From: Parafilimonas terrae
GTDB lineage: Bacteria; Bacteroidota; Bacteroidia; Chitinophagales; Chitinophagaceae
Length of the DNA: 64,000 bases
Direction: 5' to 3'
Assembly: GCF_900115755.1 (NCBI RefSeq)
Contig: NZ_FOXQ01000003.1
Coordinates: 124,001 to 188,000 of the forward strand
Positions 11,704 through 22,192 of this stretch are shown in pieces. The translations under genes and the position numbers were made by a program. How positions within the stretch are numbered: position 1 is the first letter of the stretch; every line of letters begins with the position of its first letter. Under the pieces are notes generated by a model. It was given only the letters and a program-made list of their open reading frames with translations, made no database searches and was not told the DNA's origin.

Positions 11704-12291
11704 TTACATGCTAAAAACTTTATCCTGCTGGTTTAAAAATTCATTCTCTACTAATTCTTCTGCCGGTTGCTCGCTTTCAAATTCTTTTAGTTTTGCATGA
11801 AAGCCTTTGCTGTCTTTAATAATAGCAATACGGGCAGTACGCACAAATTCAATCAGGCTATACTGTTCCAGCGCTTTTATCAGGCCTTCAATTTCTTCGC
11901 GGTGACCGCTCGTTTCAAATACAGTATAATCCTGGCGTATTGCTACAACACGGGCGCCTCTCTCACGCAGCAACCTTTCTACTTTTGCTTTTTCTGCAAT
12001 TACATCGGTAGGTACTTTATACAAAGCCATTTCCTGCCATATAATTTCATCGTTTGTATTGTAATAGGCTTTTAATACTTCCACCTGTTTTTCAATCTGG
12101 CGGCAAAGTTTGCGCACTACATCTTCCGTTTCATTAATTACAATAGTAAAACGGTGTACGGTATCAACTTCCGTGGGTGACGTGTTTAAACTATCAATAT
12201 TAATTTTTCTCCTGGTGAAGATGATAGCAATCCTGTTCAGTAAACCAATCTGGTTTTCTGTATAAACTGTTATGGTGAATTCCTGTTTCAT
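11704..12291 (-). CDS. ilvN: Acetolactate synthase small (regulatory) subunit
   Basis: The protein is 195 residues when started at MKQEFTITVYTENQIGLLNRIAIIFTRRKINIDSL, which is an ACT domain. An upstream in-frame extension to 12402 overlaps the ilvB end and reads as low-complexity sequence, so it is rejected. The second half (YKVPTDVIAEKAKVERLLRERGARVV...) is the ALS_ss_C domain. It binds the catalytic subunit and confers valine feedback and higher activity. It follows ilvB after 80 bases that contain an inverted repeat. Confidence 0.93.
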   Translation of the reverse strand: MKQEFTITVYTENQIGLLNRIAIIFTRRKINIDSLNTSPTEVDTVHRFTIVINETEDVVRKLCRQIEKQVEVLKAYYNTNDEIIWQEMALYKVPTDVIAEKAKVERLLRERGARVVAIRQDYTVFETSGHREEIEGLIKALEQYSLIEFVRTARIAIIKDSKGFHAKLKEFESEQPAEELVENEFLNQQDKVFSM

Positions 12292-12298
12292 TTTTAAA

Positions 12299-12367
12299 AA
12301 TTCAAAAGTTAAAAGCCAAAACTCAAAGACGTATCTTTTTTTACTTTTTAATTTTGGCTTCTGAATT
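12299..12367. repeat. Imperfect inverted repeat in the ilvB-ilvN gap
   Basis: AATTCA (12299-12304) and AAGCCAAAA (12313-12321) are mirrored by TTTTGGCTT (12352-12360) and TGAATT (12362-12367). The repeat occupies nearly the whole 80-base gap between the ilvB stop and the ilvN start. The arms are AT-rich with no following T run, so a terminator is unlikely. It may be the remains of an inserted element, or an mRNA structure. Confidence 0.5.
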
Positions 12368-12371
12368 AAAA

Positions 12372-14108
12372 TTATTTCAATCTTATCTCTGCTACGCTGC
12401 AACCCTGTGGCACCATAGGAAATACATTATTCTCTTTTCCAACCATTACTTCAAGCAGATAAGAACCTTTATGATCGAGCATTTGCTGTAAGGCAGCTTT
12501 TAAATCTTTCCTGCTATTGATTGATTTACCTTCAATGCCATAACCTTTTGCAATGGTTACAAAATCGGGGCTTTGAATGTCAACGAAAGAATATCTTTTT
12601 GCATTGAAGAGTTCCTGCCACTGGCGCACCATGCCTAAGAAATTATTATTGAGTATAAGAATCTTTACGGCTGCACCATACTGCATAATAGTTCCCATTT
12701 CCTGCAACGTCATTTGAAAACCGCCATCGCCAATAATAGCAACAACTTCTCTTTCAGGCGCACCATATTTTGCCCCGATAGCTGCCGGCAGACCAAAACC
12801 CATTGTGCCCAAACCGCCGGATGTTACATTGCTTTTTGACTGATTAAATTTTGCATAACGGCAGCCCACCATCTGGTGCTGGCCAACGTCGGTTACGATA
12901 ACCGCATTGCCGCCCGTTAATTCATTCAATACATCAACCACTTCTGCCATACTCATTTCTTCACCGGAAGGGTGCATTTCTTTTTCAATAACAATTTCTT
13001 CTTCCTGCTTTGTATGTTCTCTAAATTTCTGAAGCCATTCTTTATGTTCCTTCCTGTCAACCAGTTCCGTTAACAAGGGCAGTGTTTCTTTACAATCGCC
13101 CCAAACCGGAACGGTTGCTTTTACATTCTTATCAATTTCTGCAGGATCAATATCCAGGTGAATAATCTTTGCCTGTTTTGCATATTTATCCAGGCGGCCG
13201 GTAACGCGGTCGTCGAAACGCATGCCTATTGCAATGAGTACATCACATTCATTAGTTAACACATTCGGGCCATAGTTGCCATGCATGCCCAGCATACCAA
13301 CGTTTAAAGGATGATCAGTTGGCAAAGCACTCAAACCAAGTATCGTCCATGCAGATGGAATACCTGCTTTTTCAATGAAAGCTTTAAATTCATTTTCAGC
13401 CTGGCCAAGAATTATACCTTGCCCAAAAAGCACGAATGGCTTTTTTGCTTCATTAATGAGTTTTGCTGCTTCTTCAATATATTCTTTGCGAACAATTGGC
13501 TTTGGGCGATAGCTGCGTATGTGATCGCATTTTTTATACCCTGCAAAATCAAATTTTTGCACCTGCGCATTCTTGGTAATATCAATAAGTACCGGCCCCG
13601 GCCTTCCACTGGACGCGATGTAAAAAGCCTTTGCCAGCGCTGAAGGAATTTCGTTTGCATCGGTAACCTGGTAATTCCATTTGGTAATGGGCGTCGTAAT
13701 ATTTATTACATCTGTTTCCTGGAAAGCATCGGTGCCAAGCAGGTGTGCAAACACCTGGCCTGTAATGCAAACAACAGGCGTAGAATCAATCTGTGCATCG
13801 GCAAGACCGGTTACAAGATTTGTGGCGCCGGGGCCGCTGGTTGCAAATACAACACCTGTTTTACCGCTGGTGCGTGCAAAGCCCTGCGCCGCATGAATGG
13901 CGCCCTGTTCGTGGCGCACGAGTATGTGCTTTAATGTTTCGTCGTGATCAAACAGCGCATCGTAAATAGGCATGATAGCGCCGCCCGGATAACCAAAAAT
14001 GGTTTCCACACCTTCTGCAATCAATGCTCTCATTACCGCCTCGCTTCCGCTAATATTCTCAACTTTTGATGCAGTGGTTTCTTCTTTTATTAATTCAAGT
14101 GTTTCCAT
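12372..14108 (-). CDS. ilvB: Acetolactate synthase, large catalytic subunit
   Basis: This 578-residue ThDP enzyme condenses pyruvate with pyruvate or 2-oxobutanoate. The ThDP-activating glutamate is E67 in LVRHEQGAIHAAQGFARTSG, the FAD/ThDP region includes ATSGPGATNLVTGLADA, and the diphosphate-binding motif is IGDGGFQMTLQEM to LILNNNFLGMVRQW in the last quarter. Length and domain order are normal for anabolic, FAD-containing AHAS. It is preceded by a DinB gene and followed by ilvN. An N-terminal extension of about 20 residues before SGSEAVMRAL is ordinary. Confidence 0.96.
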   Translation of the reverse strand: METLELIKEETTASKVENISGSEAVMRALIAEGVETIFGYPGGAIMPIYDALFDHDETLKHILVRHEQGAIHAAQGFARTSGKTGVVFATSGPGATNLVTGLADAQIDSTPVVCITGQVFAHLLGTDAFQETDVINITTPITKWNYQVTDANEIPSALAKAFYIASSGRPGPVLIDITKNAQVQKFDFAGYKKCDHIRSYRPKPIVRKEYIEEAAKLINEAKKPFVLFGQGIILGQAENEFKAFIEKAGIPSAWTILGLSALPTDHPLNVGMLGMHGNYGPNVLTNECDVLIAIGMRFDDRVTGRLDKYAKQAKIIHLDIDPAEIDKNVKATVPVWGDCKETLPLLTELVDRKEHKEWLQKFREHTKQEEEIVIEKEMHPSGEEMSMAEVVDVLNELTGGNAVIVTDVGQHQMVGCRYAKFNQSKSNVTSGGLGTMGFGLPAAIGAKYGAPEREVVAIIGDGGFQMTLQEMGTIMQYGAAVKILILNNNFLGMVRQWQELFNAKRYSFVDIQSPDFVTIAKGYGIEGKSINSRKDLKAALQQMLDHKGSYLLEVMVGKENNVFPMVPQGCSVAEIRLK

Positions 14109-14180: not shown

Positions 14181-14666
14181 TTACCTGTAATAGCCCAGCA
14201 AATCTGTTGAGCCAACATTTGCAAATCCTGATTGCCGCAACATAGTCACCAGTTGACCGCGGTGGTATGTTGCATGATTGACGACATGTGCAAACAACTG
14301 GTAAAAAGGCATTGAATAAGCAGTGCCGTTCAATCTTTTAAAATCAAGGTTTTTAGTAAGTTCCATTTCATTAAAATTTTCAACAAATAATTTGAAAGCT
14401 TCTGATGTTTTCTTCCAAAGTGCTATATGTTCTTCTTTTGTGCCTTTATATGTTGACTGCAACCATTTCACCGGTTCTTTCCTAAACCTTTGCAGCCATG
14501 TATTTTCTGCGCTGATGATATGTAAAACCGTTTCCTGTATGCTGTTAAAACTGCTGGTGATTGATTGATTCCATTGTTCATCAGAAATATTTTCAAGCCA
14601 GCCACAAACCATATTATTTGCCCATAAATTGTATTCAGCTAATTCTATAAAATATTGTTTCGTCAT
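14181..14666 (-). CDS. DinB-family protein
   Basis: This 161-residue DinB-superfamily four-helix protein starts MTKQYFIELAEYNLWANNMVCGWL. Its metal histidines are in ETVLHIISAENTWLQRF and LFAHVVNHATYHRGQLVTMLRQ, the latter being the HxxxHRGQ pattern diagnostic of DinB. The function is unknown; family members are metal-binding and some are thiol S-transferases. It lies between ilvD and ilvB with gaps of 115 and 72 bases, and the upstream gap carries a family 2 repeat. Confidence 0.82.
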   Translation of the reverse strand: MTKQYFIELAEYNLWANNMVCGWLENISDEQWNQSITSSFNSIQETVLHIISAENTWLQRFRKEPVKWLQSTYKGTKEEHIALWKKTSEAFKLFVENFNEMELTKNLDFKRLNGTAYSMPFYQLFAHVVNHATYHRGQLVTMLRQSGFANVGSTDLLGYYR

Positions 14667-14781: not shown

Positions 14782-16470
14782 TTACGCTTCATCCGTAACA
14801 CAACCTTCACTTGCTGTTTTTACACTTTTTGCATATTTATAAAGAACACCGCTTGTTGCTTTTAATGCAGGCTGCTTCCATGCAGCTTTGCGCTTAGCAA
14901 TTTCTTCTTCACTCACTTTTAAAGTAAGCGTGTTATTGATGGCATCAATTTCAATTATATCATTGTCTTCAACCAAACCAATCAGACCGCCTTCATGTGC
15001 TTCCGGTGTAATATGGCCTACCACAAAACCATGAGTGCCGCCGCTGAATCTTCCATCTGTTATTAATGCAACGCTTTTACCTAAACCTGCGCCAATAATG
15101 GCGCCTGTTGGCTTCAGCATTTCAGGCATGCCCGGCGCTCCTTTGGGGCCGATGCCACGTATCACCACTACATCGCCTGCATGCACGCGTTTGCTTTGCA
15201 AACCTTCTATCAAATGCGCTTCGCCTTCAAACACACGTGCTGTGCCTTCAAAGCGCTCGCCTTCTTTACCGGTAATTTTTGCAACACTTCCTTTTTCAGC
15301 AAGATTGCCATATAAAATTTGTAAGTGACCTGTTGCTTTGAGCGGTTTTTCCAGCGGCATTAAAATATCCTGCTTTTCAAAATCAAGATCCGGTGCATCC
15401 TTTAAATTCTCTGCAACGGTTTTGCCGGTTACCGTTAAACAATCGCCATGTAACAGGCCTTTGCTCAATAAGTACTTCATTACTGCAGGTACGCCGCCAT
15501 ATTGATGCAGGTCCGCCATCATATATTTACCGCTTGGCTTGAAATCTGCCAGCATAGGCACTTTATCGCTTATCTTTTGAAAATCATCAACTGTTAAATC
15601 AACGCCCACGCTTTTTGCCACAGCAATCAAATGCAAAACTGCATTTGTGCTTCCGCCCAGCACCATCACAACTGTAATGGCATTTTCAAACGCCTTACGC
15701 GTCATAATATCTCTTGGCTTGATATCTTTTTCAAGCAATAATTTAATGGCTTCACCAACTGAATCGCATTCTTTTTGTTTTGCTTCACTTAATGCAGGAT
15801 TGCTTGATGAATAAGGCAAACTCATGCCCATCGCCTCTATAGCGCTTGCCATGGTATTTGCAGTGTACATGCCGCCACAGGCGCCGGCACCGGGGCAGGC
15901 GTGACGAACAATGCCCTTGAAATCTTCTTCACTTAAGTTGCCTGCTATCTTCTGGCCTAATGCCTCAAATGCAGAAACTATGTTTAAATCGTTTTGTCCT
16001 TTGTAATGGCCGGGTTCAATGGTGCCGCCATATAACATAATGGAAGGGCGGTTCAGTCTTCCCATTGCCATTATGCAACCAGGCATGTTTTTATCGCAAC
16101 CAGGTATTGCAACAATAGCGTCATAATATTGTGCGCCTGCATTGGTTTCAATACTGTCGGCAATTACATCGCGGCTTACCAAACTGTAACGCATACCATC
16201 AGTACCCATGCTTATACCATCGCTTACGCCAATCGTATAAAAACGTAAACCCAGTAAACCATCAACTTTATTTACACTGTCTTTTACACGGGTTGCAAAA
16301 TCATTCAAATGCATGTTGCAGGGGTTGCCATCCCAGCCCATACTTACAACACCCACCTGGGCTTTCTTAAAATCTTCTTCTTTAAACCCAATAGCATAAT
16401 ACATTGCCTGGGCAGCAGGCTGCGTTGGATCCTGCGTTAACGTTTTAGAATACTTGTTTAGTTCTGCCAT
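14782..16470 (-). CDS. ilvD: Dihydroxy-acid dehydratase
   Basis: This 562-residue IlvD/Edd-family iron-sulfur enzyme dehydrates 2,3-dihydroxy-isovalerate and its ethyl homologue to the 2-oxo acids. Cluster cysteines are C51 ([11 protein letters not shown]), C125 ([11 protein letters not shown]) and C198 ([16 protein letters not shown]). The C-terminal swivelling domain includes [22 protein letters not shown]. It is the first gene behind the leader-peptide attenuator and promoter described at 16501-16696, so its transcription is likely tied to the supply of charged Ile/Val tRNAs. It probably leads a transcript running into DinB, ilvB and ilvN. Confidence 0.96.
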
Positions 16471-16500: not shown

Positions 16501-16530
16501 AAAACCCGCCTCTGAGCGGAGGCGGGTTTT
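16501..16530 (-). terminator. Intrinsic terminator of the ilvD attenuator
   Basis: On the minus strand AAAACCCGCCTC (16530-16519) pairs perfectly with GAGGCGGGTTTT (16512-16501) around a 6-base loop, followed by TT, A and TTT. This is a textbook intrinsic terminator, yet it lies 30 bases upstream of the ilvD start codon in the same direction. It therefore acts either as the terminator after leuB or, more likely, as the conditional terminator of an attenuator. Confidence 0.85.
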
Positions 16531-16568
16531 TATAATCATTTATTTTTTATAAATTAAACACCACCTCC
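16518..16568 (-). promoter_or_regulatory. Predicted antiterminator pairing
   Basis: GGAGGTGG at 16568-16561 (last sense codons of the leader peptide) is complementary over 8 bp, with one G-U, to CCGCCTCC at 16525-16518, part of the 5' arm and loop of the terminator. The two structures exclude each other. A ribosome finishing the leader would cover the GGAGGTGG segment and allow termination. A ribosome stalled on the upstream Ile/Val codons would leave it free and block the terminator. Confidence 0.65.
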
Positions 16569-16646
16569 TGTAACAGAAATAATAATGACAACGACAATAA
16601 TTATGACGCTGTTATTAGTGATGTTATTGATTATTCTGTTCAACAT
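16554..16646 (-). CDS. ilv leader peptide (30 residues, Ile/Val-rich)
   Basis: The reading frame ATG at 16646 to TAA at 16554 encodes MLNRIINNITNNSV, then the run IIIVVVIII, then SVTGGGV. Nine residues are Ile, six Val and one Leu. The run VIIIVVVIII is encoded by AT-rich Ile and Val codons. It begins just downstream of a consensus promoter and ends 24 bases before a terminator hairpin whose 5' arm can pair with its last codons. This is the architecture of amino acid attenuators such as ilvL/ilvB leaders of enterobacteria. The peptide is presumably not functional itself; its translation is the sensor. Confidence 0.8.
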   Translation of the reverse strand: MLNRIINNITNNSVIIIVVVIIISVTGGGV

Positions 16647-16665
16647 GTTTTGTGATGATGTTGAA

Positions 16666-16696
16666 CAAATATATAACCGCCTTTCAATTATCCAAA
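16666..16696 (-). promoter_or_regulatory. Promoter of the ilvD attenuator operon
   Basis: On the minus strand TTTG (16696-16693) is followed after 19 bases by TATATTTG (16673-16666), an exact match to the Bacteroidota -33 TTTG and -7 TAnnTTTG elements. Transcription would start near 16660, about a dozen bases before the leader ATG. A 10-bp inverted repeat, TGTTCAACAT (16667-16658) with ATGTTGAACA (16646-16637), overlaps the start site and the leader ATG and could be an operator or an mRNA hairpin. Confidence 0.75.
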
Positions 16697-16723
16697 GAAC
16701 TTTTAAATAAAATATATAATCAC

Positions 16724-17845
16724 TTATATAATTGTTGACTTTCTTAATTGCACATTCTCAACATTGATCCTTTCATGATCAGTTGATTTTACATAATCAC
16801 TTATGAGGTCGCCGATGGTTGAAGTGAAATAAAAATTCACAGGCTCAATATCTTTTGATACAAACCCATTTTCCAATGTCCATTTAACAGCTTCACGCAC
16901 TAATGCTGCTTCAGTTGACAAACCGAAATGTTCCAGCATCATGGCGGCAGATAAAATAGAACCTAAAGGATTGGCAATATCTTTTCCGGCAGCCTGTGGA
17001 TAAGAGCCGTGAATCGGTTCAAATAAAACTGTTCCTGTTCCAACAGAAGCCGAAGGCAATAAGCCAAGCGAGCCGCTTAACACACTGGCTTCATCACTGA
17101 TTATATCGCCAAACATATTTTCTGTAAGCACAATATCAAATTGCTTGGGGTTGAGCATTATCTGCATGGAAGCATTATCAACAAACATGTAATCAACGGC
17201 AACATCAGGATATTGCTTTGAAATTTCCTGCACCACTTTTCTCCAAAGCCTTGATGTTTCCAGCACATTTGCTTTATCAACCAGCGTTAATTTTTTCCTG
17301 CGCTCCGGCTTTTGTGCATATTGAAATGCAAGGTGTGCAATGCGTTCAATTTCTGGTGTTGTATAAACACAATCATCACTGGCTTTGGTTCCATCTTCAC
17401 TTAATTCTTTCTTACCAAAATAAATGCCGCCGGTTAATTCACGAAAGATGATAAAGTCAACACCTTCTAACTTTTCAGCTTTTAAAGGAGCAAGATGCTG
17501 CAGCGCCGGATAAGTATTTACCGGGCGGATGTTAGCAAACAACTGCAAACTTTTTCTCAGTTTCAGCAAACCTTGTTCAGGACGAACTTTAGCGGTTGGG
17601 TCGTTATCATATTTTGGATGGCCGATTGCACCGAACAAAACAGCGTCGCTGTTAAGACAGCTTTCAATGGTTTCATCAGGTAATGGATTGCCCGTTTTAT
17701 CTATGGCCACAGCACCCATTAAATGATAGGTGTAATTAAATGTATGATTGAATTGCGCGGCAATAGCATTCAATATTTTTACTGACTGCCTTGTTACTTC
17801 CGGCCCTATGCCGTCGCCTTCGATTACTGTAATGTTTTTTTGCAT
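16724..17845 (-). CDS. leuB: 3-isopropylmalate dehydrogenase
   Basis: This 373-residue NAD-dependent beta-decarboxylating dehydrogenase makes 4-methyl-2-oxopentanoate for leucine. It begins ITVIEGDGIGPEV and has the metal/substrate helix LLKLRKSLQLFANIRPV (the R-K-x-L-x-L-x-A-N-x-R region), IIFRELTGGIYFG, the metal Asp region VDNASMQIMLNPKQFDIVLTENMFGDIISDE, and the NAD loop EPIHGSYPQAAGKDIANP. It follows the ABC ATPase by 31 bases holding a GC palindrome, and is the last leu gene before the ilvD promoter. Confidence 0.96.
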   Translation of the reverse strand: MQKNITVIEGDGIGPEVTRQSVKILNAIAAQFNHTFNYTYHLMGAVAIDKTGNPLPDETIESCLNSDAVLFGAIGHPKYDNDPTAKVRPEQGLLKLRKSLQLFANIRPVNTYPALQHLAPLKAEKLEGVDFIIFRELTGGIYFGKKELSEDGTKASDDCVYTTPEIERIAHLAFQYAQKPERRKKLTLVDKANVLETSRLWRKVVQEISKQYPDVAVDYMFVDNASMQIMLNPKQFDIVLTENMFGDIISDEASVLSGSLGLLPSASVGTGTVLFEPIHGSYPQAAGKDIANPLGSILSAAMMLEHFGLSTEAALVREAVKWTLENGFVSKDIEPVNFYFTSTIGDLISDYVKSTDHERINVENVQLRKSTII

Positions 17846-17876: not shown

Positions 17877-19331
17877 TTAAACCGCTACTGCAGTTGTTTT
17901 TTTTATATTAATTGAATATTGTTTATGTGCATTATTTTCCAGCAACATTACTTTGTCAACACATTTCGGAATTTCATTTTCATAATGGCTTACATAAATT
18001 AATGTTGTGTTTGACTGATTGCATAAATCATCAACTAACGCAACAAAATCTTTTACCTGCTGCTCATCTAAACCCTGGCAAGGCTCATCAAGAATTAATA
18101 ACGGCGGATTTTTTACCAATGCCCTTGCCAGCAAAGTCAAACGCTGCTGGCTTGTTGAAATAGTATGCAGTTGCTGCTGTGCTTTGGCTTGTATGTTCAG
18201 GAACTGTAGCCATTCTTCCACTATCACTTTCTGTTCACCGCTTAATTTTTTGTACACGCCTATCGTATCAAAAAAACCGGAAGCGATAGTGTTATATACT
18301 GAAACAGTTTTATCGTAATACCAATGCAATTCTGGTGATACAAAACCTATTTTTCTTTTAATATCCCAGATACTTTCGCCACTGCCGCGCTTCTTGTCAA
18401 ACAAAAAAACTTTATTGGAATATGCCTGCGGATGATCGCCGGTTATTAAGCTTGTCAGCGTTGATTTACCTGCTCCGTTCACACCTTTCAACAGCCATCT
18501 TTCCCCGCGGTTTATCTGCCAGTTAACGTTGCTGAGAATTTTCTTTTCACCGTAAGCAACAGAAACATTTTCCAAACGAACGGCAACATCAAATTCTATG
18601 TTATTGTGTTGTTTGGGAATGGCGCCATTGAATATTGAATATTGATTATTGTTTATTGAATATTTAAACGTTTTAATGTTTGCAAATTGCTTCAGCTTAC
18701 CATTTTCCAACTCTGCAACATGCGTTATACATGCCGGTGCATCTTCAATATCTGCAATAATTATTATAGTTGATGACTTGCTTTTTTCATCAATAACTTC
18801 CTTTAAAACTTTACGGCTGTTAATATCCAGGCCAATAAAAGGCGTATCAAAAATAAAAACATCAGCATCCTGCAAAAAAGCTTTTATTAACTGGAAACGT
18901 TTATGCTCGCCGCTTGACAAATGCAGCAAGGCATCGTTTCTGCGATGGTTTAACTGAAGCTGGTTCAGCAAGGCATCAATTTTATTTTTATCTGCTGATA
19001 CTTTAAGCAGTTCTTCACTCACCGTTAATGCATCATTGTTATCACTGCTGTTATAACGTTGCTGGTAATAAAAATCGTTTGTATTAGAAAGTGTTTTGAA
19101 GAAATAGTGTTGCTCAACAAAAATTATTTCCGGCTTACTGTTAAATTCAATCGTGCCTTTATAAAATATTTTACCGGCAAGCGCTTTTGCCAAAATTGTT
19201 TTGCCACTGCCAGAGCTGCCTGTTATAAGCAAATGTTCGCCTGCATTTAAATTAAATGATACATTGTTCAGTAACGGGTTTTGCTGCTGGTTAATGTTTA
19301 TATTATTTACTATGATGGATGTTTGCGCCAT
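17877..19331 (-). CDS. ATP-binding protein with two fused ABC domains (ModF-like)
   Basis: This 484-residue soluble protein has two complete ABC domains. The first has Walker A GSSGSGKT near residue 38, signature LSSGEHKRF and Walker B DVFIFDTP. The second has Walker A GVNGAGKS near 280, a diverged signature ISTSQQRL and Walker B LLILDEPCQGLD. There are no membrane segments and no partner permease nearby. The duplicated layout resembles ModF/PhrA-type proteins of unclear role. The start lies 3 bases after the leuD stop, so it is cotranscribed with the leucine genes, though nothing in it suggests leucine synthesis. Confidence 0.82.
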   Translation of the reverse strand: MAQTSIIVNNININQQQNPLLNNVSFNLNAGEHLLITGSSGSGKTILAKALAGKIFYKGTIEFNSKPEIIFVEQHYFFKTLSNTNDFYYQQRYNSSDNNDALTVSEELLKVSADKNKIDALLNQLQLNHRRNDALLHLSSGEHKRFQLIKAFLQDADVFIFDTPFIGLDINSRKVLKEVIDEKSKSSTIIIIADIEDAPACITHVAELENGKLKQFANIKTFKYSINNNQYSIFNGAIPKQHNNIEFDVAVRLENVSVAYGEKKILSNVNWQINRGERWLLKGVNGAGKSTLTSLITGDHPQAYSNKVFLFDKKRGSGESIWDIKRKIGFVSPELHWYYDKTVSVYNTIASGFFDTIGVYKKLSGEQKVIVEEWLQFLNIQAKAQQQLHTISTSQQRLTLLARALVKNPPLLILDEPCQGLDEQQVKDFVALVDDLCNQSNTTLIYVSHYENEIPKCVDKVMLLENNAHKQYSINIKKTTAVAV

Positions 19332-20034: not shown

Positions 20035-20787
20035 TTATTTCTTAACTGCTTTTACTCTTAAACGTATATAATCTGCGTACCATTTGCCATTTTCATAATT
20101 GGTTTCTTTTAAAATGGCAACGGCTTTATCAACAATATTTTCAACTTTTTCTGATGGAACCAGCTTAAAGAATGCCTGGCAAAACTGGTTGATCCAGTTC
20201 TTCATGCCATCTTCACCAAGCAGTTCTGTTGGCCTGTCAAATTGTATAATGTTTGAAACAGTGAAACCAACTCTTTCCAACATTGTTGCCTGCTCGCCCG
20301 CAGATGAAAAATAGTTTACCTGTATATTCGAATTCAATTCAAAACCTTCTTCGTTTAAAGCTTGTTTAATAGCTTCGTGAATACTTTCAATATTATGTTT
20401 GGCGCCCATTTCATATACAAACCTGCCGCCATCTTTTAAACTGTCGTAAACACATTGCAAAGCATTTTGCTGGTCTTTTATCCAATGAAATGTTGCGTTG
20501 GAAAAAGCCGCATCAAACTTTGAATCGAAGTAAAAATTACTTGCATCTTTTACGAGAAATTCAATATCATCATACCCCTGCTTTGCCCTGGCAATCATTT
20601 CCGGCGATGCATCTATACCGGTAACAATTGCGCCGGCTTCTGCAATTTTTGATGTTAATGTTCCTGTGCCGCAACCTACATCTAAAATGTGTTCGTCTTT
20701 TTGTGGAGCCAACCAGCCTAAAACATCTTCGCCATATTTTGCAACAAAACTGTGTTTGTTGTCATATAATGTTGCGTTCCACTTCAT
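20035..20787 (-). CDS. Class I SAM-dependent methyltransferase
   Basis: This 250-residue Rossmann methyltransferase starts MKWNATLYDNKHSFVAKYGEDVLGWL. The SAM motif is ILDVGCGTGTLTSKIAEAGA, with acidic motif II GIDAS and motif IV FDAAFSNATFHWI. The layout resembles the Tam/ubiE-type small-molecule methyltransferases, including trans-aconitate methyltransferase. A trans-aconitate-like role next to an aconitase-family LeuCD pair is an attractive but unproven idea. Its ATG is one base past the leuC stop; a start at 20796 would overlap leuC by 8 bases. Confidence 0.82.
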   Translation of the reverse strand: MKWNATLYDNKHSFVAKYGEDVLGWLAPQKDEHILDVGCGTGTLTSKIAEAGAIVTGIDASPEMIARAKQGYDDIEFLVKDASNFYFDSKFDAAFSNATFHWIKDQQNALQCVYDSLKDGGRFVYEMGAKHNIESIHEAIKQALNEEGFELNSNIQVNYFSSAGEQATMLERVGFTVSNIIQFDRPTELLGEDGMKNWINQFCQAFFKLVPSEKVENIVDKAVAILKETNYENGKWYADYIRLRVKAVKK

Positions 20788-20788
20788 A

Positions 20789-22192
20789 TTAATCATTTAT
20801 CAGTTCTCTTATATCGCTTACTTCACCGGTAATTGCAGCGGCAGCAGCGGTTAAAGGACTTGCCAAAAATGTTCTTGCATTAGGGCCCTGCCTTCCTTCA
20901 AAATTCCTGTTGGAAGTAGAGATGCAATATTTTCCGGCGGGAATTTTATCTTCATTCATACCCAAACAGGCAGAACAACCTGGCTGGCGCAACATAAACC
21001 CGGCTTCTTCAAAGATTTTATTAATACCTTCTTCAATAGCTTGTTTTTCTACCTGCTTGCTGCCAGGCACCACCCAAACTTCAACATCTTTCGCTTTCTG
21101 TTTTCCTTTTACAAAACCTGCCACCATTCTTAAATCTTCAATACGGGCATTGGTGCAACTGCCAATAAAAACATAATCTACTTTCTTACCCTTCATGGCG
21201 GCGCCCGGTTCAATGCCCATGTAATGCAAACTTTTTTCGTAAGAAGGTTTGTCTTCCGCACTTATTTCTGTTAATGCAGGCACACGTCCTGTAATGCCGA
21301 TGCCCATGCCCGGGTTAGTGCCGTAAGTTATCATCGGCTCAATGTCTTCCGCTTTAATGTTAAGCTCTGTATCAAACTTTGCATCAGCATCACTGTATAA
21401 AGTTTTCCAGTAAGCGAGGGCTTTATCCCAGTCTTCTCCATGCGGTGCAAATTTCCTGTCTTTTACATAGTTAAATGTAATTTCATCAGGAGCAATCATG
21501 CCGCAGCGGGCGCCCATTTCAATGCTCATGTTGCAGATGGTCATGCGGGCTTCCATCGATAAATTCCTGATAGCTGAACCAGCATACTCTACAGCATAAC
21601 CGGTAGCGCCGCTGGCAGATATTTTTGAAATGATATAAAGAATAATATCTTTTGAAACAACGCCTTTGTTTAAGGTGCCTTCTACATTAATGCGCATCAA
21701 TTTTGGCTTGCTCTGCATTAAACATTGCGTTGCCAAAACCATTTCCACTTCACTGGTGCCAATGCCAAATGCGATAGTACCAAATGCGCCGTGGGTAGAT
21801 GTATGGCTGTCGCCGCAAACGATGGTCATACCGGGTTGGGTAACGCCAAGTTCAGGGCCGATAATGTGAACAATGCCCTGGTAAGGATGGCCTAAACCGT
21901 ATAATTCAATACCAAATTTTGCACAATTTTCTTTCAGTTTTTCAACCTGCTTGCGGGAGAGCTCTTCGCGTATGGGAAGATGCTGGTTTAATGTTGGCAC
22001 ATTATGATCGGCTGTTGCCACCACCTGCTGCGGGCGAAAAACCGGGAGGCCGCGTTTTTCCAAACCTGCAAATGCCTGCGGGCTGGTTACTTCGTGAATG
22101 AAATGTTTATCTATATATAATACTGAAGGCCCGCCTTCAATTTGTTTTACCACATGTTTTTCCCAAATCTTTTCGAATAAAGTCTTACCCAT
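20789..22192 (-). CDS. leuC: 3-isopropylmalate dehydratase large subunit
   Basis: This 467-residue aconitase-family protein carries the [4Fe-4S] cysteines C346 ([12 protein letters not shown]), C406 and C409 ([12 protein letters not shown]). The N-terminal part has [17 protein letters not shown] and [16 protein letters not shown]. With LeuD it converts 2-isopropylmalate to 3-isopropylmalate. It is separated from leuA by 159 bases that carry a family 1 repeat, and it is closely coupled to the methyltransferase gene downstream. Confidence 0.96.

Follow-up and report, generated by a model that had tools for sequence, protein, structure and literature searches.

The gap between leuB and ilvD on the minus strand of the window (the whole 64,000-nucleotide stretch of Parafilimonas terrae DNA analysed here) contains, read directly from the sequence, a promoter, an Ile/Val-rich leader ORF, the segment GGAGGTGG, a terminator and a T tract. 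We conclude that this element very probably controls the ilvD(-ilvB-ilvN) operon by classical, ribosome-mediated transcription attenuation. The mechanism is almost certainly of the classic enterobacterial kind, which is already known, and what is new is a conserved element of this kind, outside Rfam, in a phylum for which the mechanism has seldom been documented.

Organization of the leuB-ilvD gap

The leader runs from its ATG (16646-16644) to a TAA ending at 16554, and 16 of its 30 sense codons specify Ile, Val or Leu (Table 1). Given the I/V/L frequency of the window itself, the probability of at least 16 such residues in 29 codons is about 1e-4. Fourteen short frames with at least 8 I/V/L in 11 residues occur on the two strands of the 64 kb, and the ilvD leader alone precedes a GC-rich hairpin followed by a T tract. 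Near the end of the leader, GGAGGTGG is read in frame as the codons GGA GGT GGt. The terminator hairpin, made of 12 pairs and a 6-base loop, lies 30 bases before the ilvD ATG (16470), and the promoter stands in the context AGTTCTTTG...GGCGG..TATATTTG. The original prediction had placed the promoter, the leader, GGAGGTGG and the terminator here, and all these positions were borne out base for base on the minus strand. Its proposal that an antiterminator strand can pair with an arm of the terminator also held, for GGAGGTGG and CCGCCTCC, both in folding and in the permutation test described below.

Table 1. Coordinates of the parts of the proposed attenuator and of the neighbouring genes in the window
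Feature	Position	Strand	Basis or remark
Bacteroidota-type promoter, TTTG-N19-TATATTTG	16666..16696	-	sequence
Promoter boxes, separated by a 19-base spacer	TTTG 16696-16693; TATATTTG 16673-16666	-	sequence
Leader ORF MLNRIINNITNNSVIIIVVVIIISVTGGGV-stop	16554..16646	-	sequence; I/V-rich frame kept in relatives
Control codons, run VIIIVVVIII including three rare GTC	16578..16607	-	run ends 9 nt before region 2
Region 2, GGAGGTGG, antiterminator strand and proposed 1:2 partner	16561..16568	-	pairs with CCGCCTCC
Region 3, CCGCCTCC, common to antiterminator and terminator	16518..16525	-	
Intrinsic terminator AAAACCCGCCTC-CGCTCA-GAGGCGGGTTTT	16501..16530	-	folding and covariation; T tract to 16499
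ilvD, dihydroxy-acid dehydratase, predicted first regulated gene	14782..16470	-	NCBIfam TIGR00110 above cut-off
ilvB, acetolactate synthase large subunit, downstream in presumed operon	12372..14108	-	NCBIfam TIGR00118 above cut-off
ilvN, acetolactate synthase small subunit, downstream gene	11704..12402	-	NCBIfam TIGR00119 above cut-off
leuB	16724-17845		NCBIfam model above cut-off

NCBIfam models above cut-off also identified leuC and leuD, and no comparable leader was found ahead of leuA in the window. The real start of ilvN probably lies inside the listed frame. A DinB-like gene (14181-14666), an ABC ATPase (17877-19331) and a methyltransferase (20035-20796), named by eye, are found within the leu-ilv cluster, and an ABC ATPase likewise adjoins leuB at one other locus (L299). 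Two records titled Lactococcus (L074 and L086) carry an ilvD 75% identical to the window's Bacteroidota IlvD, which may reflect horizontal transfer or slow divergence.

Alternative folds of the leader RNA

The terminator hairpin by itself has a folding energy of -20.2 kcal/mol (z -6.1 relative to shuffled sequences). The antiterminator, that is the fold of the piece from GAGGUGG to the 5' arm without the 3' arm, reaches -14.3 kcal/mol (z -4.1), and none of 200 shuffles was as good. When the entire leader is folded, AACAUCAC pairs with GGUGGUGUU (the 1:2 hairpin) and the terminator forms. This 1:2 protector hairpin is the least supported part of the element: it folds here, its conservation in Chitinophagaceae is not above chance (mean z -0.33 against shuffles, with -0.17 at the window locus), and the signal is stronger in the phylum-wide set (mean z -1.41).

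Conservation among relatives

Searches with IlvD picked out 69 of 100 Chitinophagaceae genomes, 80 database loci and 93 of 218 genomes across the phylum. A scan for an I/V/L-rich short ORF followed by a GC-rich hairpin and a T tract gave 72 first-pass calls and, after curation, 66 leaders; 38 more, from the phylum-wide sample, were used in the tests. Curation removed six calls: L018 (a duplicate call in the wrong frame), L070 (opposite strand), L033 and L136 (duplicate genomes), and L057 and L112 (uninterpretable).

A covariance model, R1, was built from an alignment (A1) of 53 relatives including the window locus, where it scores 102.6 bits, a value that is not independent since this locus is among the training sequences; genome-wide, the runner-up reaches 37.4 bits. 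This second match (G000:C19) combines the end of a membrane-protein gene with a terminator, and we rejected it as due to chance. R1 matches 56 of the 100 Chitinophagaceae genomes, in single copy each: 54 of the 69 with ilvD versus 2 of the 31 without (Fisher p 5e-12). No R1 match was found in the other 15 ilvD-bearing Chitinophagaceae genomes. In 52 of the 56, the match shares the strand of ilvD and precedes it, immediately in 19 cases and in 33 at a distance that would accommodate one gene, typically ilvE. Where the next gene could be read (59 leaders), it was ilvD in 14 cases and a member of the family assigned to ilvE in 43. The four other matches include one in the order leuB-element-ilvE (G044), and two matches (G048 and G077) are close to contig ends. 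In the fourth, from G005, the element (L297, G005:C1:2567727-2567857) is located away from ilvD, before a 98-residue ACT-domain protein that resembles the acetolactate synthase small subunit and scores below the cut-off of that model.

The element is conserved in Chitinophagaceae with no tie to leuB, and its place before ilvE where ilvE precedes ilvD indicates that it follows the ilv operon. The original prediction had made its attenuator reading depend in part on whether relatives keep an Ile/Val-rich frame and stems at this position. They keep the frame, together with a co-varying terminator and antiterminator, which supports an attenuator and not merely a leuB terminator.

The I/V-codon run is conserved across the 66 leaders kept after curation. 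It is likewise conserved in other families of the phylum, whose similar leaders come with unrelated terminator sequences. Codon positions 1 to 3 of the leader have entropies of 1.03, 0.66 and 1.33, the third being the most variable, and all five internal gaps in the leader alignment are 3 nt long. Region 2 mostly lies 14-16 nt after the first nucleotide of the final I/V/L codon (45 of 66 leaders; mode 14-15 nt), about one footprint, or as far as a ribosome extends beyond its A site; at the window locus the last Ile codon is 12 nt from region 2, at the short end of the range. From region 2 to the leader stop there are mostly 7-19 nt. The usual end of Chitinophagaceae leaders is IIVVVVIIIPALHGGG-stop. 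Pro-Ala (CCT GCN, at codons -3/-2 before region 2) is conserved in most of them and absent from the window leader, and a nascent-peptide or spacing role is possible.

Complementarity between region 2 and the terminator arm is kept while the sequences change. As scores based on exact runs underrate mismatched pairings, duplex energies were used instead: each leader end paired with its own terminator arm gives a mean of -14.8 kcal/mol, versus -10.1 (sd 0.4) with swapped arms (49 arm types), and 0 of 20,000 swapped permutations were as good. Matched pairs across lineages include GGAAGTGGT/ACCACTTCC, CGGGGCG/CGCCCCG, GAAACGGC/GCCGTTTC and GTGAGGCACT/AGTGCCTCAC. In alignment A1, both partners have changed in five pairs of the terminator, and none of 500 shuffles did as well. 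Within Chitinophagaceae the antiterminator shows two double-changed pairs (33 of 500 shuffles as good), a weak covariation explained by the fact that GGAGGTGG hardly varies there; its strong covariation signal stems from the comparison between lineages. Some phylum-wide leaders have weak antiterminators (L196, L203 and L204).

The promoter TTCTTTG-N14-22-TANNTT[C/T/A], with one mismatch allowed, is found ahead of 48 of 104 leaders versus 3.3% of shuffles; nearly all these matches are within the Chitinophagaceae-centred set, with a spacing of mostly 19. Beyond the -33/-7 boxes, the promoters of relatives keep AGTTCTTTG and often GGCGG directly 5' of TATATT (16673-16700 in the window).

Two further arrangements were observed. 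In Chryseobacterium and some other families, tandem leader ORFs, each with its own terminator, are found ahead of ilv genes (L109:1583-1711 and 1795-1851; L194/L273, L212, L228 and L238). Most of these pairs also carry a matching antiterminator strand, and such tandem leaders would constitute a serial two-step attenuator. In Sphingobacteriaceae-like genomes, Leu-rich leader-like ORFs (LLPVILLNLLLL) are followed by a GCGTCC-type terminator (L196:238-420, L197:258-446 and L112:894-1055); this type, with its weak antiterminator score, is perhaps a Leu-sensing variant.

Codon choice in the leaders

GTC represents 1.5% of the 1056 Val codons in the long ORFs of the window versus 3 of 6 in the leader (P 7e-5). 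In the leaders of relatives it was seen 102 times versus 31.7 expected from neighbouring genes (z 13.8), and in phylum-wide leaders 36 times versus 6.8 (z 11.8), z-scores which overstate the evidence because related sequences are not independent. Of the 53 aligned leaders, 36 have GTC seven codons ahead of region 2. The leaders also favour ATT over ATC for Ile and over-use CTA for Leu.

Among the tRNAs recovered from this genome, ARAGORN found a single tRNA-Val, with anticodon UAC, and none with anticodon GAC, although a GAC gene may have escaped detection. From the codon statistics we infer that stalling is tuned by GTC, a codon rare in genes and for which no GAC tRNA was found. More generally, the leaders may prefer codons read by wobble, in analogy with the rare CUA of the Salmonella leu leader. 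We see an even chance that Bacteroidota broadly control the BCAA operon by ribosome-mediated attenuation with leaders tuned by poorly decoded GTC, usually at codon -7. If true, in a genome whose sole tRNA-Val has the UAC anticodon, the switch would react to Val-tRNA charging long before ordinary genes.

Alternative explanations

Could the hairpin be nothing more than an intrinsic terminator that closes the leu operon at the end of leuB, and the short frame a low-complexity accident? The leuB gene of the window does end about 200 bases 5' of the hairpin, and a leuB end is close upstream in 47 of the 89 loci with enough upstream sequence, but none was found within 400 nt upstream in the other 42. 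Furthermore, the element is served by a conserved promoter of its own that lies past leuB, it travels with ilvE/ilvD, and a plain terminator needs neither the conserved frame nor the codon run nor the antiterminator strand, so that we consider this explanation very improbable. The short frame could also encode a functional small hydrophobic protein, the hairpin simply fixing a low expression of ilvD. Its conservation with third-position variation is what any coding sequence would show; however, it is I/V-rich in every lineage while the remaining peptide and its length are free (16 to about 60 residues as listed), and it lies directly before a BCAA-gene terminator with which a co-varying RNA element overlaps. 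Of all the explanations weighed here, we give this one the smallest probability.

Slightly more credible than either, and still very unlikely, is an attenuator devoid of codon-specific stalling, where a nascent peptide (IIIPAL-type), a regulatory protein or a small molecule would select the hairpin. The conservation of the residues that follow the Ile run (CCT GCA at codons -3/-2, mostly Pro-Ala and not I/V/L) would fit such a sensor. Yet Pro-Ala is missing in the window leader (SVT) and in other lineages, whereas the Ile/Val codons, the distance to region 2 and the complementarity are conserved, and no Rfam riboswitch or protein-binding leader matched above threshold.

Proposed mechanism

The locus combines a run of end-product codons in a short leader ORF, an intrinsic terminator between this leader and the first structural gene, and a terminator-excluding antiterminator, one strand of which lies close enough to the leader stop for a ribosome to reach, as in classical attenuators. 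Under the ribosome-mediated attenuation that we favour, RNA polymerase would start about 15-20 bases 5' of the leader ATG, and a ribosome would translate the leader ORF behind it. With ample charged Val- and Ile-tRNA, the ribosome would get to the stop codon and mask GGAGGUGG (region 2); the CCCGCCUC...GAGGCGGG terminator would then form and transcription would end before ilvD. When charged Val- or Ile-tRNA is short, the ribosome would stall in VIIIVVVIII, leaving region 2 free to pair with CCGCCUCC (region 3) while region 4 has yet to be transcribed; the polymerase would then continue and read-through into ilvD increase.

As classical attenuation needs a ribosome closely pacing RNA polymerase, these leaders lead us to predict that transcription and translation are coupled in Bacteroidota. 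The leaders would also be a natural reporter of Val/Ile-tRNA charging and, given their GTC bias, swapping codons in them would put theories of how control codons are chosen (PMC1183508) to a direct test.

Comparison with known attenuation systems

Rfam gave no family above threshold in the window. Its enterobacterial amino-acid leaders stayed below gathering (Leu_leader RF00512, 20.2/50 bits; Thr_leader RF00506, 26.2/55; Trp_leader RF00513, 23.6/41; Phe_leader RF01859, 32.7/55), scores expected for an unrelated element with similar parts. No T-box match was above gathering in the window, and none was found at E <=5 in the element stretch.

Lopatovskaya et al. reportedly surveyed attenuation across bacteria in 2010, Bacteroidetes included. 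Until they discovered one in Firmicutes, Naville and Gautheret (2010, PMC2965389) were aware of leader-peptide systems only in Proteobacteria and Actinobacteria. For Flavobacterium psychrophilum, a member of the same phylum as our host, the relevant passage of PMC9723704 speaks of 'strong clues' of leader-peptide attenuation upstream of amino-acid operons; it concerns one species and describes no individual element. In B. thetaiotaomicron, sORFs reminiscent of leader peptides were noted (PMC7366714). The remark in the original prediction that attenuation is far less documented in this phylum than in enterobacteria agrees with PMC2965389 and with that passage of PMC9723704. Where there was scattered suspicion (one Flavobacterium, unvalidated Bacteroides sORFs), our analysis defines, in a major phylum, a family that can be tested.

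The ilvB-II and ilvB-OMG elements (PMC10272879) likewise have a BCAA-codon-rich uORF and an antiterminator/terminator choice before a BCAA gene; ilvB-II precedes ilvB in Corynebacterium and ilvB-OMG is found in various phyla, whereas the window element has no Rfam match. In the Salmonella leu attenuator, rare CUA control codons raise the sensitivity to amino-acid limitation, according to the mention of Carter et al. (1986) in PMC1183508. Both systems, as far as that mention goes, use rare control codons, which in window-type leaders are GTC for Val, together with a preference of ATT over ATC for Ile.

Further close parallels are the ilvGMEDA and ilvBN attenuators, in which an Ile/Val(/Leu)-rich leader peptide and a terminator precede the BCAA genes and an antiterminator is mutually exclusive with that terminator. 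The leader attenuators of these operons in Escherichia coli and Salmonella are listed in PMC1183508. By description, the window element has the same type of leader, a terminator and an exclusive antiterminator; it belongs to another phylum, its promoter is of another type, its leader sequence is different, and its genes come in another order, with ilvE or ilvD first.
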